From: a virus
Virus record (IMG/VR): IMGVR_UViG_3300032116_001099
Span: 1 to 27,290 of that record
Direction: 5' to 3' (one strand)
Length of the DNA: 27,290 bases
A program made the translations under genes and the position numbers. The notes beneath the pieces were generated by a model. The model did no database searches. It was not told where the DNA came from and saw only the letters and a program-made list of their open reading frames with translations. Positions 6,189 through 26,697 of the stretch are shown here, in pieces (within the stretch, counting starts at the first letter, position 1; each line of letters opens with the position of its first letter).

Positions 6189-7631
6189 ATGCCAGTGCCA
6201 AATTCATTTGCTACCGCAACCAGTGCAATTCCTCTTGCTAATTTGGATGCAAACTTTCAGTATTACGACAATGCCTTCACCATTGCTGGTACGGCTATGG
6301 AGGTCAACTACACCTTCAGACTAGAAGACCCAACTGACAACACCAAGAAGGCTGAGTTTGTGATGAGTGGCATCACAACTGCAACCACCCGGCAATACAC
6401 GCTGCCAAACATTACAGGCACACTGGCAACCCTTGCAAACACCGCGCAGACATTCACTGGTGCGACTACATTCAGTTCCACATTCACAGTTAACGGCAAC
6501 GCAACTATCTATGGCATGACCGTAGGTAGAGGCTTGGCTAACTTGGCTACCAATACGGCTGTTGGCGGTGCTGCTTTGGGCGCGACTACGACAGGCTCTG
6601 GCAACACGGCGGTAGGCGCTAATGCTGCCGATGCCATCACCACTGGCGCAAGTAACGTAGCTATTGGCAGCGGAGCTTTGGGCGCGGCGCAAACCGTTTC
6701 AAGCGTCATTGCAATTGGCGCTGCTGCGCTTACTTCTGCAACTGCTGGTGACAATAACATTGCTATTGGCGCATCATCAATGAACGGAGCTGTCACTGGC
6801 GGCAACAACACCGCTGTTGGAACTTCCTCTCTAAACGCAAACACTTCTGGCGCAGAGAACACGGCCATCGGTTACCTTGCAATGTCCAGCAACACCACGG
6901 GGTCACTTAACACCGCTGTTGGTCGCCGTGCTCTGTGGGGCAACAGCACCACCAGCAACAACGTGGCGATTGGCTACTTTGCGCTGGATGATGTGCTGAC
7001 TGCTGGCAACGGCACGGCTGTTGGTTATGCGGCCCTCACAGCGGCAACAGGAGGCAGCAACACGGCTCTGGGTTACAACGCAGGAACTGCTGTAACAACG
7101 GGCGCTACAAACCTGTTCCTTGGAGCAAGCTCTGGTGCTTTGATGACTACGGGCAGCAACAACGTGGTTGTCGGCAGCTACCAAGGCAACTCTGGTGGCT
7201 TGGACATCCGCACGGCCAGCGGCTACATTGTGTTGTCTGATGGCGCTGGCACTATCCGTCAGGTTGTTGACTCGTCTGGGAACACGCAGTTTCCGGGAGC
7301 AATTGTTGTTGATGCGCCAGCACCTGCGGCCATTAGCGCCGCCGCAACACTGACCAACGCAAACATCCAAGCTCAGATCATCAACACAACTGGCACGACA
7401 TACACGGTCACAATGCCTCTTGGCACGACTATGGAAACATTGGTCCCGTGGATAGGTGTTGATTTTGGCTACGACTTTACCGTTATCAACACTGCTTCTG
7501 GAACAATCACGATGGCTGTCAACACAGGCGTAACATCGCTAGGCTCTTTGACAATTGCCACTGGCATTTCAGCCAACTTCCGAATTCGGCGTACTGCGGC
7601 AAACACGTTCATCCTGTACCGCATCAGCTAA
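6189..7631 (+). CDS. Beta-roll repeat tail fibre-like protein
   Basis: A 480-residue protein with AAGGA before ATG 6189. After an N-terminal attachment-like part (residues 1-100), residues about 115-340 hold some twelve degenerate repeats of 12-25 residues with the cores NTAVG, NVAIG, NNIAIG, NTALG, NLFLG and NNVVVG, each followed by a turn such as TTGS or TSGA. This pattern is like the YadA-type left-handed parallel beta-roll of trimeric adhesin heads. The segment GLDIRTASGYIVLSDGAGT closes the roll, and a C-terminal beta domain follows (residues about 385-480). It is probably a trimeric fibre or tail-tip decoration used in host contact. Its place between tape measure and tip proteins is unusual. 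Confidence 0.65.
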   Translation: MPVPNSFATATSAIPLANLDANFQYYDNAFTIAGTAMEVNYTFRLEDPTDNTKKAEFVMSGITTATTRQYTLPNITGTLATLANTAQTFTGATTFSSTFTVNGNATIYGMTVGRGLANLATNTAVGGAALGATTTGSGNTAVGANAADAITTGASNVAIGSGALGAAQTVSSVIAIGAAALTSATAGDNNIAIGASSMNGAVTGGNNTAVGTSSLNANTSGAENTAIGYLAMSSNTTGSLNTAVGRRALWGNSTTSNNVAIGYFALDDVLTAGNGTAVGYAALTAATGGSNTALGYNAGTAVTTGATNLFLGASSGALMTTGSNNVVVGSYQGNSGGLDIRTASGYIVLSDGAGTIRQVVDSSGNTQFPGAIVVDAPAPAAISAAATLTNANIQAQIINTTGTTYTVTMPLGTTMETLVPWIGVDFGYDFTVINTASGTITMAVNTGVTSLGSLTIATGISANFRIRRTAANTFILYRIS

Positions 7632-19291: not shown

Positions 19292-19444
19292 TTATCTAAA
19301 CCAAAGGTAAAAGCCGTGCAAGATTCCAATTGGAAACAGCAATGCGCCAGCAATTAAAAAACCCCACAAGCCTTCTGCAAAGCAAGTGAAGATGTGTGTG
19401 AACCATGCAAAAATGCAAGCAAAACCAAATATTGCCGCCATCAT
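19292..19444 (-). CDS. Fifty-residue membrane protein
   Basis: A hydrophobic protein of 50 residues starting MMAAIFGFACIFAWFTHIFT, probably with two membrane spans (about residues 3-20 and 25-45). The start at 19444 forms an ATGA overlap with the stop of the upstream gene; an in-frame codon at 19510 is less likely. The function is unknown. It could be a membrane-acting early protein such as an exclusion or host-modifying factor. Confidence 0.5.
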   Translation of the reverse strand: MMAAIFGFACIFAWFTHIFTCFAEGLWGFLIAGALLFPIGILHGFYLWFR

Positions 19445-19596
19445 TGCACTCTCGTAATGGGTTGAGCCAGAAGCCAGTTGGAGCCAAGCTGATGGACAGA
19501 TCGTGCCCACTTGCGCTGGTAGCTGCGAATCACAGCAGGGGGTGCATCATAAGTCTGAAACAGTCGCCGTGCGTGGCGTAAAAGTGAAATGTTCAT
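19441..19596 (-). CDS. Small basic protein, first gene of the leftward operon
   Basis: A 51-residue basic protein beginning MNISLLRHARRLFQTYDAPP and ending HQLGSNWLLAQPITRVQ. I choose ATG 19596 because AGGAGT lies a few bases upstream; the ATG at 19641 has no such site. The pattern 'r..nrraWlrsv..LG.kWLLA.pv' is one I recall from small phage proteins of unknown function. Its positive charge suggests DNA or RNA contact. It is the first gene after the divergent spacer, so it should be expressed early. Confidence 0.6.
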   Translation of the reverse strand: MNISLLRHARRLFQTYDAPPAVIRSYQRKWARSVHQLGSNWLLAQPITRVQ

Positions 19597-19702: not shown

Positions 19703-19894
19703 ATGAAAACACCAGACCAACACGAAATAGATGCCGCTTGGGAGCTTTGCATAGACGCACTGCAATCCATTCGGAAATATACTTTTGACCCCGGCGACTT
19801 TGACGCAGCATCAATTGGGGTGCTGTGCAAAGCCATTGAATTACTCGCAAAGAAAGAAGTTGAAATATGCTACAAGAAAAACAGTTCTATCTGA
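19703..19894 (+). CDS. Small protein of unknown function, first rightward gene
   Basis: A 63-residue helical protein (MKTPDQHEIDAAWELCIDAL at the start, a C-terminal helix GVLCKAIELLAKKE). No Shine-Dalgarno is visible before the ATG, and the -10 candidate at 19688-19693 would leave almost no leader. The gene overlaps the next by 28 bp. It could be a leaderless early protein. No family is recognised, and expression is not proven. Confidence 0.5.
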   Translation: MKTPDQHEIDAAWELCIDALQSIRKYTFDPGDFDAASIGVLCKAIELLAKKEVEICYKKNSSI

Positions 19895-20271
19895 ACTGCC
19901 TTGCTGAAGGGCCAGTGAGCCATCGCAAGATCGCCAACAGGATGTCTTCAAGGTTTGGCACTTCACCTGCAACAGTCAAAAATGCTTTGCTGCAAGATGG
20001 ATTGATTGAACTGCATGAAAAAAAGCGTAAAGGGAAAACCAATAAATACAACCACTACTACAAGATCACAGACAAAAAGCTCAAGCCAGTCATCCTTGTC
20101 GAGCCAGAAATCATCGTCAGCGACACATGGGAAGACGGCACACCCAAGTCCAAGGGCAACGCCTTTGACCTGTCGTTAATCAAGAAAAGCCTGTTCGACA
20201 AGATGGAGTTGGCACGGTCAACCCAGAAGTACCACCAGAACAAGCCCATCACCATTTACAGCCGCGCTTGA
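19867..20271 (+). CDS. Winged-helix DNA-binding protein, putative early regulator
   Basis: A 134-residue protein. Residues about 5-60 form a helix-turn-helix / winged-helix domain (CLAEGPVSHRKIANRMSSRF, then GTSPATVKNALLQDGLIELH), with a basic wing (KKRKGKTNKYNHYYKITDKK). The C-terminal half is less structured. Such small proteins beside phage replication genes often act as regulators. The gene ends just before the structured RNA at 20291-20394, and the -35 box for that RNA lies in its last codons. Confidence 0.6.
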   Translation: MLQEKQFYLNCLAEGPVSHRKIANRMSSRFGTSPATVKNALLQDGLIELHEKKRKGKTNKYNHYYKITDKKLKPVILVEPEIIVSDTWEDGTPKSKGNAFDLSLIKKSLFDKMELARSTQKYHQNKPITIYSRA

Positions 20272-20284
20272 TTGGTGGTATAGT
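20255..20284 (+). promoter_or_regulatory. Promoter candidate for the RNA at 20291
   Basis: TTTACA (20255-20260, five of six to TTGACA) and TATAGT (20279-20284, five of six to TATAAT) are separated by 18 bp. The predicted start falls at about 20290-20292, right at the first base pair of hairpin I. The -35 box lies inside the end of the winged-helix gene. Confidence 0.55.
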
Positions 20285-20290
20285 TTAGTC

Positions 20291-20394
20291 AGACGGTTTA
20301 GATGTTGTGCGGACTAGGCACAGATACATCTAAGCCGTCAAAGGCTGACCCCTGAAGGTCTGGTGCTAGTCCCACCAGCTTTCAGGGGTTTTTT
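20291..20394 (+). ncRNA. Structured RNA with two hairpins and a predicted kissing loop
   Basis: Hairpin I pairs 20292-20305 with 20326-20339 (14 bp, one G-U) and continues with TGTGC/GCACA (20306-20310 with 20318-20322), with a three-base bulge GAT at 20323-20325. Its 7-base loop is GGACTAG (20311-20317). Hairpin II pairs CCCCTGAA (20349-20356) with TTCAGGGG (20381-20388) and CTGGTG (20360-20365) with CACCAG (20373-20378). Its 7-base loop is CTAGTCC (20366-20372), and a run of six T follows. The two loops are exact reverse complements. The segment has a promoter-like pair upstream and no open frame. It fits a roughly 104-nt small RNA or an attenuator leader of the replication gene. Confidence 0.7.
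20349..20394 (+). terminator. Intrinsic terminator before the O-like replication gene
   Basis: An 8-bp lower stem and a 6-bp upper stem separated by a small internal loop (GGT against CT) are followed by TTTTTT at 20389-20394. The GGAG ribosome site of the next gene lies at 20398-20401. A competing 4-bp hairpin GACC/GGTC (20347-20350 with 20357-20360) could disrupt the lower stem. Confidence 0.8.
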
Positions 20395-20407
20395 ATTGGA
20401 GATTTGT

Positions 20408-21148
20408 ATGGCACGGATTAGGACGATTAAGCCTGATTTTTGGCGTGATGAGCTTTTGGCTGGCGTATCTGCTGAAGCTGCCTTGCTTGCAATAGGTTTG
20501 CTGAACCATTGCGATGATGAAGGGTATTTCAATGCCAATCCAAAATTGGTTGAATCCGATGTATTTCCATTACGGAACTTGTTGAGGAAGACTACCGAAC
20601 TACTACGGGAGTTGTCATGTATAGGTTATATAGAAGTGTTTTCTGGGTCTGATGGAAAGACTTATGGAAAAGTTGCAAACTTTGAGAAGCATCAGGTCAT
20701 AAACAAGAAAACTCCTAGCAAAATCAAGGACTTATGTGAATTACTACAAGACTCCCACACTACTACCGTAGTCCTACCTACTGGAAAGGAAGGGAATGGA
20801 AAGGAAGTGGAAAAGGAAAGGAAGAAGGTAAGCGCTGTCGCGCCTCGTCCTGAAGATGTAAATCAGCAAGTTTGGGATGATTGGGTTGCCCTTAGGAAGC
20901 GCAAAGGTACAACCATTTCTGAGACAGCCATTGAAGGAGCAAGAGAGGAAGCCGCAAAGATTGGTTGGACTCTTCAGCAGTTTTTGGTTGAGTGGTGCAC
21001 CCGAGGATCACAAGGGCTGAAAGCTGAGTGGATTAAGCCTGACCAACAGAGCATGAGCAAGACTGGTCAAATGAACAAGAAGGTCATTTCTGGCCTTACC
21101 CGTGGCCTTATTGGAGGTGACAACAATGTCCGCTTACTTGGAAACTGA
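20408..21148 (+). CDS. Replication initiator-like protein (lambda O-type)
   Basis: A 246-residue protein. ATG 20408 has GGAG six bases upstream; codons from 20363 belong to the terminator. The N-terminal domain reads MARIRTIKPDFWRDELLAGV, then LLAIGLLNHCDDEGYFNANP and VANFEKHQVINKKTPSKI. This is the winged-helix pattern found in many phage replication initiators ('RirtIKPeFw.de.l......aRllfigLwn.aDdeG...'). A basic Lys/Glu-rich linker (residues about 126-140) is followed by a C-terminal helical domain (QQVWDDWVALRKRKGTTISE). It would open the origin and recruit the helicase loader encoded next. A purine-rich repeat sits in the linker. Confidence 0.75.
   Translation: MARIRTIKPDFWRDELLAGVSAEAALLAIGLLNHCDDEGYFNANPKLVESDVFPLRNLLRKTTELLRELSCIGYIEVFSGSDGKTYGKVANFEKHQVINKKTPSKIKDLCELLQDSHTTTVVLPTGKEGNGKEVEKERKKVSAVAPRPEDVNQQVWDDWVALRKRKGTTISETAIEGAREEAAKIGWTLQQFLVEWCTRGSQGLKAEWIKPDQQSMSKTGQMNKKVISGLTRGLIGGDNNVRLLGN
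20783..20823 (+). repeat. Three GGAAAGGAA repeats in a purine tract (origin candidate)
   Basis: GGAAAGGAA occurs at 20783-20791, 20798-20806 and 20815-20823, in a stretch from 20783 to 20828 that is almost all purine. It lies in the linker of the O-like gene, the same place as the iterons of the lambda origin. A short palindrome, ACTACCGTAGT, is at 20762-20772. No strong AT-rich unwinding region follows. Confidence 0.4.
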
Positions 21149-26241: not shown

Positions 26242-26697
26242 ATGACCATTGAAAAAATGATTTTGGAACACTTGATGTACACGCCACAAGATGGAAAAGT
26301 TTGGTGGATTAAACACCCAAGACGCTCAACAGCCAACGAAACTGAAGCTGGAAATTTACGGCAAGACGGCTACCGAAAGCTCAAGTTTTGCGGCAAACAA
26401 TACTTGGTTCATCGTGTTGCTTGGCTATTGCATCATGGGTCTTGGCCTGTAGGTGATATTGACCACATTGACGGGAACCCATCAAACAACAAACTTGAAA
26501 ATTTACGAGATGTTCCGCACAGCATAAATTTGCAAAACAGAAAAACGGCAACCACAAAAAACAAGACTGGACTTTTGGGTGTTGTGAAGCGCCGGAACAA
26601 ATACGCTGCACACATCCACAAGAACGGCAAACAAATTTATCTTGGTTTGTTTCCAACGGCTGAATTGGCTCATCAAGCCTACAAGGAGAACACATGA
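26242..26697 (+). CDS. HNH homing endonuclease with AP2-like domain, second copy
   Basis: A 151-residue protein with AAGGAG before ATG 26242. LVHRVAWLLHHGSWPVGDID, then HIDGNPSNNKLENLRDVPHS, is the HNH signature, and KNKTGLLGVVKRRNKYAAHI with IYLGLFPTAELAHQAY is the AP2-like DNA-binding part. It resembles the protein at 21921 in layout (HNH then AP2) but differs clearly in sequence, so these are independent insertions or old relatives. It lies between two packed accessory genes. Confidence 0.75.
   Translation: MTIEKMILEHLMYTPQDGKVWWIKHPRRSTANETEAGNLRQDGYRKLKFCGKQYLVHRVAWLLHHGSWPVGDIDHIDGNPSNNKLENLRDVPHSINLQNRKTATTKNKTGLLGVVKRRNKYAAHIHKNGKQIYLGLFPTAELAHQAYKENT

Follow-up and report, generated by a model that had tools for sequence, protein, structure and literature searches.

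The question raised by this locus was whether two adjacent hairpins with exactly complementary 7-nt loops, located directly upstream of a phage replication gene, form a functional RNA, and what such an RNA would do there. The locus lies in a 27,290-nt stretch of viral DNA (positions 1 to 27,290 of the IMG/VR record IMGVR_UViG_3300032116_001099), which is called the window here.

Structure and signals of the predicted RNA

The segment 20291-20394 was predicted to give an RNA of about 104 nt, which consisted of hairpin I, a 7-nt linker and the terminator hairpin II. The features of the locus were as follows.

19867-20271, plus strand: 134-aa upstream gene without a match in Pfam or PHROG
20255-20284, plus strand: predicted promoter, TTTACA (20255-20260), 18 nt, TATAGT (20279-20284), extended -10 TG
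20292-20339, plus strand: hairpin I, lower stem of 14 bp, 3-nt bulge (20323-20325), upper stem of 5 bp
20311-20317, plus strand: loop I, GGACUAG, which forms the 5' side of the kissing helix and matches loop II by complementarity in all family members
20340-20346, plus strand: linker AAAGGCU, with GGC invariant in the 29-member alignment
20347-20390, plus strand: hairpin II, which forms the terminator, with stem parts of 12 bp and 6 bp separated by one bulged U
20366-20372, plus strand: loop II, CUAGUCC, 3' half of the kissing helix
20389-20394, plus strand: T-run of six T, intrinsic terminator and predicted 3' end, read from the sequence
20396-20401, plus strand: likely ribosome-binding site TTGGAG, read from the sequence
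20408-21148, plus strand: downstream gene, replication initiation protein with an O-like C-terminal part (phrog_1408, E 4.7e-37; phrog_678, O-like, E 1.7e-14)

The minimum free energy of the segment was -58.7 kcal/mol (z -8.1), and equal stability was reached by none of 200 shuffles. The computed fold agreed with the original prediction for hairpin I (14 bp plus 5 bp) and for the 6-bp part, the loop and the six T of hairpin II; for the lower part of hairpin II, 12 bp followed by a bulged U were found where 8 bp had been counted. The two loops, 49 nt apart on one strand, were exact reverse complements in the sequence and in the fold, as had been noted. A simple terminator scan missed hairpin II, probably because of the bulge in the stem, though the hairpin and the T-run were plain in sequence and fold. 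The linker GGC (20343-20345) was unpaired in the proposed fold despite its invariance in the 29-member alignment, and could serve in a tertiary contact or for binding of another molecule.

The TTTACA-18-TATAGT pair had 10 of 12 promoter matches and was the sole promoter-like site in 20100-20600, with a predicted transcription start at about 20291; no promoter-like site was present on the minus strand of the same interval. The proposed discrete RNA unit of about 104 nt, from promoter to terminator, was supported, with both ends predicted. When the whole 27-kb window was scanned for hairpins with stems of at least 5 bp and 7-nt loops, in pairs within 75 nt, this was the only pair with complementary loops (once per strand), and such pairs were absent from 60 dinucleotide shuffles of the window. 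An Rfam 15 search of the window gave no match at or above the gathering cut-off, and the weak matches near the RNA were far below it, consistent with the first reading, which knew of no RNA family with this arrangement in this place.

Relatives of the RNA and covariation of the loops

A blastn search revealed one phage genome, MW202710, which was 72% identical over the RNA. Its loops were GGUUCAG and CUGAACC, with three adjacent loop pairs altered on both sides. Pattern scans of IMG/VR and a covariance model yielded 46 distinct full-length members, designated as type 1. No search pattern required loop complementarity, and two patterns required G....AG in loop I. In the alignment of 29 members, L029 and one L124 copy were first spotted by a loop-complementarity scan, and the other 27 were not. 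Beyond the 46 members, one very divergent copy (57.6 bits) was found as a second copy within one phage. The type-1 RNA is a conserved phage RNA family missing from Rfam 15.

All 46 distinct members had loops with 7/7 Watson-Crick complementarity, and these represented 12 kinds of loop pair. The divergent copy added a 13th, AUAAGAG/CUCUUAU, which was also 7/7 complementary and broke the otherwise invariant first G-C pair. In the 29-member alignment, the loop helix was Watson-Crick in 203/203 cells, and four of its seven pairs (22-85, 23-84, 24-83, and 25-82) were altered on both sides, with pair 25-82 taking all four Watson-Crick forms. The observed loop covariation score was reached by 0/500 shuffles and by no slid register. 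About 20 loop changes were counted on a tree built without the loops, a rough figure since the tree was poorly resolved. In the same alignment, the hairpin I stems covaried, with 97.8-100% of cells paired, and 11 of the 18 pairs of hairpin II had changes on both sides. The hairpin lengths and the loop spacing (53-57 nt) were nearly constant among members.

The paired loop changes that had been sought in homologous phages were thus found, and the perfect complementarity across 46 members and the covariation in the 29-member alignment show that the loop-loop pairing is under selection. This is the firmest result of the analysis. The alternative that the loops match by accident, with a stable hairpin that simply happens to precede an ordinary terminator, draws on the fact that stable terminator hairpins are common in phages; it is contradicted by 46/46 complementary members over 12 loop pairs and by the 500 shuffles, so that a chance match, which the first reading had also thought improbable, was rejected and has only a negligible probability.

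Genomic position of the type-1 RNA

Each of the 46 members had a -10 box (two mismatches at most) whose end was 7-9 nt away from the first base pair of hairpin I, on its upstream side. A box with at most one mismatch was present in 41/46 members, versus 26% in shuffled upstream sequence. The stop codon of the upstream gene was usually about 13 nt before the RNA, and the distance from the end of the U-run to the next start codon had a median of 14 nt. The spacings of the -10 box and the start codon indicate that the type-1 RNA occupies the whole leader from an early promoter to an early gene.

The genes downstream of the RNA encoded replication initiators, DUF1376 proteins, HNH-like proteins and unknown proteins. 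The RNA was sometimes located one gene upstream of O, and most relatives of the O gene had no such RNA directly upstream. The proposed tie to O-like genes did not hold; the RNA precedes several early or replication gene families and can occur twice per phage. Of 13 contigs longer than 30 kb searched with the model, nine had one copy and four had two copies with different loops. The difference in 4/4 two-copy phages compares with about 60% expected by chance, as estimated from loop frequencies. In L158 (a contig of 33,983 bases), the two RNAs were located at 19421-19522 on the minus strand and 26246-26345 on the plus strand, pointing apart; one preceded a replication-type gene and the other a gene that appeared Rha-like by eye, an arrangement resembling leftward and rightward early operons.

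A second RNA type in the same position

A different structure, designated as type 2, was found upstream of the same replication gene at loci L017, L022, and L045 (L017:2160-2255; L045:2880-2990), and further at L182-L261. Its pattern matched at least 120 viral contigs, from which 83 distinct sequences were read. The type-2 RNA has a hairpin with the loop UUGGCG, which is complementary to CGCCAA. It further has a 5' strand that forms a pseudoknot with an inner hairpin through the loop of the latter (6-8 nt), and an 18-bp terminator stem enclosing that hairpin. Covariation was found in the strand-loop helix as well as in the terminator stem; since the search pattern prescribed CGCCAA and the inner stem, invariance there is not evidence. 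Rfam 15 gave no family at the type-2 loci. With its terminator and its covarying pseudoknot, type 2 is a further phage RNA family that is not listed. No description of either RNA was found in a partial survey of the literature.

Both types were flanked by the same protein families, including the families upstream and downstream of the RNA in the window; the family of the 134-aa gene was found ahead of type 1 in four distinct sequences and ahead of type 2 in one. The type-2 pattern had no match in 20 type-1 contigs, and the type-1 model had none in 15 type-2 contigs. The two types never occurred together in these 35 phage contigs, so phages seem to use either one. At L052:817-1059 and L053:2902-3144 (MW202462 and MW202544), the small CDS UOF77143.1 and UOF78377.1 were annotated antisense across a type-2-like RNA; they are probably spurious calls.

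Searches of cellular genomes and plasmids, and other features of the window

A 19-base pattern searched in 84,980 bacterial and archaeal species genomes gave two matches only, both without hairpins or terminator. The type-1 covariance model found nothing in 399 Burkholderiales genomes, in a search without a positive control, and the type-2 pattern found none in the 399 Burkholderiales and 398 genomes of the phylum. In plasmids, one 29-base match was found, which was not the RNA. The lack of true copies in these bacterial and archaeal genomes suggests phages that rarely lysogenise, which argues against an immunity role; prophage immunity by a kissing RNA (P4 CI-like) was considered less likely.

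The only hint of a host came from the tape-measure protein, 29% of which could be matched, at 43%, to that of a Methylophilaceae phage. Two tandem paralogues, 68% identical, were located at 962-1456 and 1466-1984 within the structural gene region, possibly two tail proteins. The long ORF at 6189-7631 had NTAVGxxAL-type repeats and resembled, by eye, trimeric adhesin-like fibre proteins.

Proposed function

We read the segment as the leader at the 5' end of an early (replication) operon of the phage, and most likely as a terminator/antiterminator switch, with a probability of about 45% for the whole reading. RNA polymerase would start at hairpin I, as predicted from the promoter with its -10 box conserved in all members. 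Hairpin I, whose stems are shown by covariation, would fold first and present its 7-nt loop. Once the terminator has been transcribed as far as its apical loop, a 7-bp helix would form between the two loops, a pairing shown by covariation and presumably made in cis. With a connection of only about 7 nt between the hairpins, this kiss would strain closure of the terminator base, and some polymerases would enter the replication gene; if the kiss were absent or broken, the terminator would close and the RNA of about 104 nt would be left. These last two steps are suggested by coarse geometry. In a crude rod model with the 7-nt linker and assumed bend limits, at most 0.4% of conformations let the loops meet when the terminator was complete, compared with 30-46% when six basal pairs were open. 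The original suggestion that the kiss could break the terminator agrees with this rough estimate, provided that the kiss forms within one molecule.

As base pairs, the stem of hairpin II, a strong terminator, and the kiss are formally compatible, so their exclusion in type 1 depends on the rod model. The 5' strand of type 2 lies immediately next to the terminator stem, and its partner loop is at the far end of these 18 bp, for which reason the pseudoknot and the complete stem should be mutually exclusive in one molecule. The type-2 RNA would then act alike, through a pseudoknot incompatible with its full terminator stem. Both types have a 5' element that is transcribed first and pairs with the apical part of the terminator hairpin, which is transcribed last; an antiterminator contact competing with terminator closure would fit both. 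We infer cis pairing, competition, read-through and control of the downstream gene from these arrangements. That two unrelated RNA classes, interchangeable between phages at the same early-gene junctions, have converged on a leader in which a loop helix of 6-8 bp lets the 5' part capture the tip of the terminator hairpin, as a protein-free switch or timer for replication genes, is possible but doubtful.

Other functions are compatible with parts of these data. A stand-alone small RNA, that is, a promoter-RNA-terminator cassette in gene junctions with a compact kissed fold acting in trans on host or phage targets, would explain the predicted promoter and terminator of all members and the varied downstream genes. 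The RNA is nearly always directly before early or replication genes, however, with a ribosome-binding site just past the T-run, and it has no conserved unpaired seed-like region except the linker, which makes this reading unlikely. Pairing between two molecules would yield the same covariation as cis pairing and is permitted by the complementarity within one RNA; it could produce dimers or rings, as in phi29 pRNA, or a concentration sensor in which the terminated RNA acts on new transcripts, much as in the plasmid copy-number control that the first reading had suggested. The steric conflict between the full terminator and a cis kiss in the rod model is in its favour, and pRNAs vary their interlocking loops likewise (PMC5340915). 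A trans contact would not need the near-constant hairpin lengths and loop spacing, and type 2, in the same position, has a loop-to-strand contact with a geometry suggesting an intramolecular switch; intermolecular pairing is rather improbable.

The folded RNA might also bind its own polymerase, which would then ignore this and later terminators in the manner of put. Like putL, the type-1 RNA has two hairpins at the start of early transcripts (PMC9378689), and one phage has two copies on divergent strands. However, put RNAs are about 70 nt and are not themselves terminators (PMC9378689), and hairpin II is not fully synthesised until the polymerase reaches the termination point, so that a put-like function appears quite improbable.

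The analysis adds two unlisted, covariation-supported RNA families common before phage replication genes, each with a long-range contact to the terminator hairpin, and makes RNA-only control of early genes by capture of the terminator loop accessible to experiment, with 13 natural loop pairs for such tests. If true, convergent loop capture would be a previously undescribed kind of antitermination.

Comparison with known systems

Transcription attenuators consist of a promoter, a structured leader, an intrinsic terminator and a gene, and the usual antiterminator re-pairs a strand of the terminator. The type-1 RNA likewise has an intrinsic terminator between a (predicted) promoter and a gene; unlike in the usual attenuators, the proposed antiterminator contact would come from a separate hairpin that captures the terminator at its apical loop. 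In ColE1 (RNA I and RNA II) and similar antisense copy-number systems, 7-nt kissing loops are found near a replication function, as in type 1, but the partners are transcripts of opposite strands and are complementary automatically. In type 1, both loops are in one RNA, so their complementarity must be selected, and the minus strand of 20100-20600 has no promoter-like site.

The HK022 put RNA has two stem-loops in about 70 nt near the start of the early transcript, needs no phage protein, binds the beta' zinc-binding domain and acts in cis as an antiterminator at terminators further downstream (PMC9378689). Two stem-loops near an early promoter, predicted here, are common to put and type 1. 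Antitermination by put is proven and no kissing loops were reported for it (PMC9378689), whereas the function of type 1 is proposed, its length is 104 nt and hairpin II itself precedes a T-run. The phi29-type pRNA is also a phage RNA of about 100 nt with two variable, mutually complementary loops, but its fold contains a three-way junction and its loops join separate molecules within the packaging motor (PMC5340915); type 1 has two tandem hairpins without such a junction, one of them a terminator, and is located in the replication region. GOLLD and ROOL are phage RNAs of unknown function with conserved kissing loops, and they differ from type 1 in being hundreds of nt long, often near tRNA islands, and in forming cages of many molecules (PMC12286853). 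When the defining features of the put RNA, the pRNA and the ColE1-type systems were compared one at a time, the type-1 RNA lacked at least one tested feature of each.
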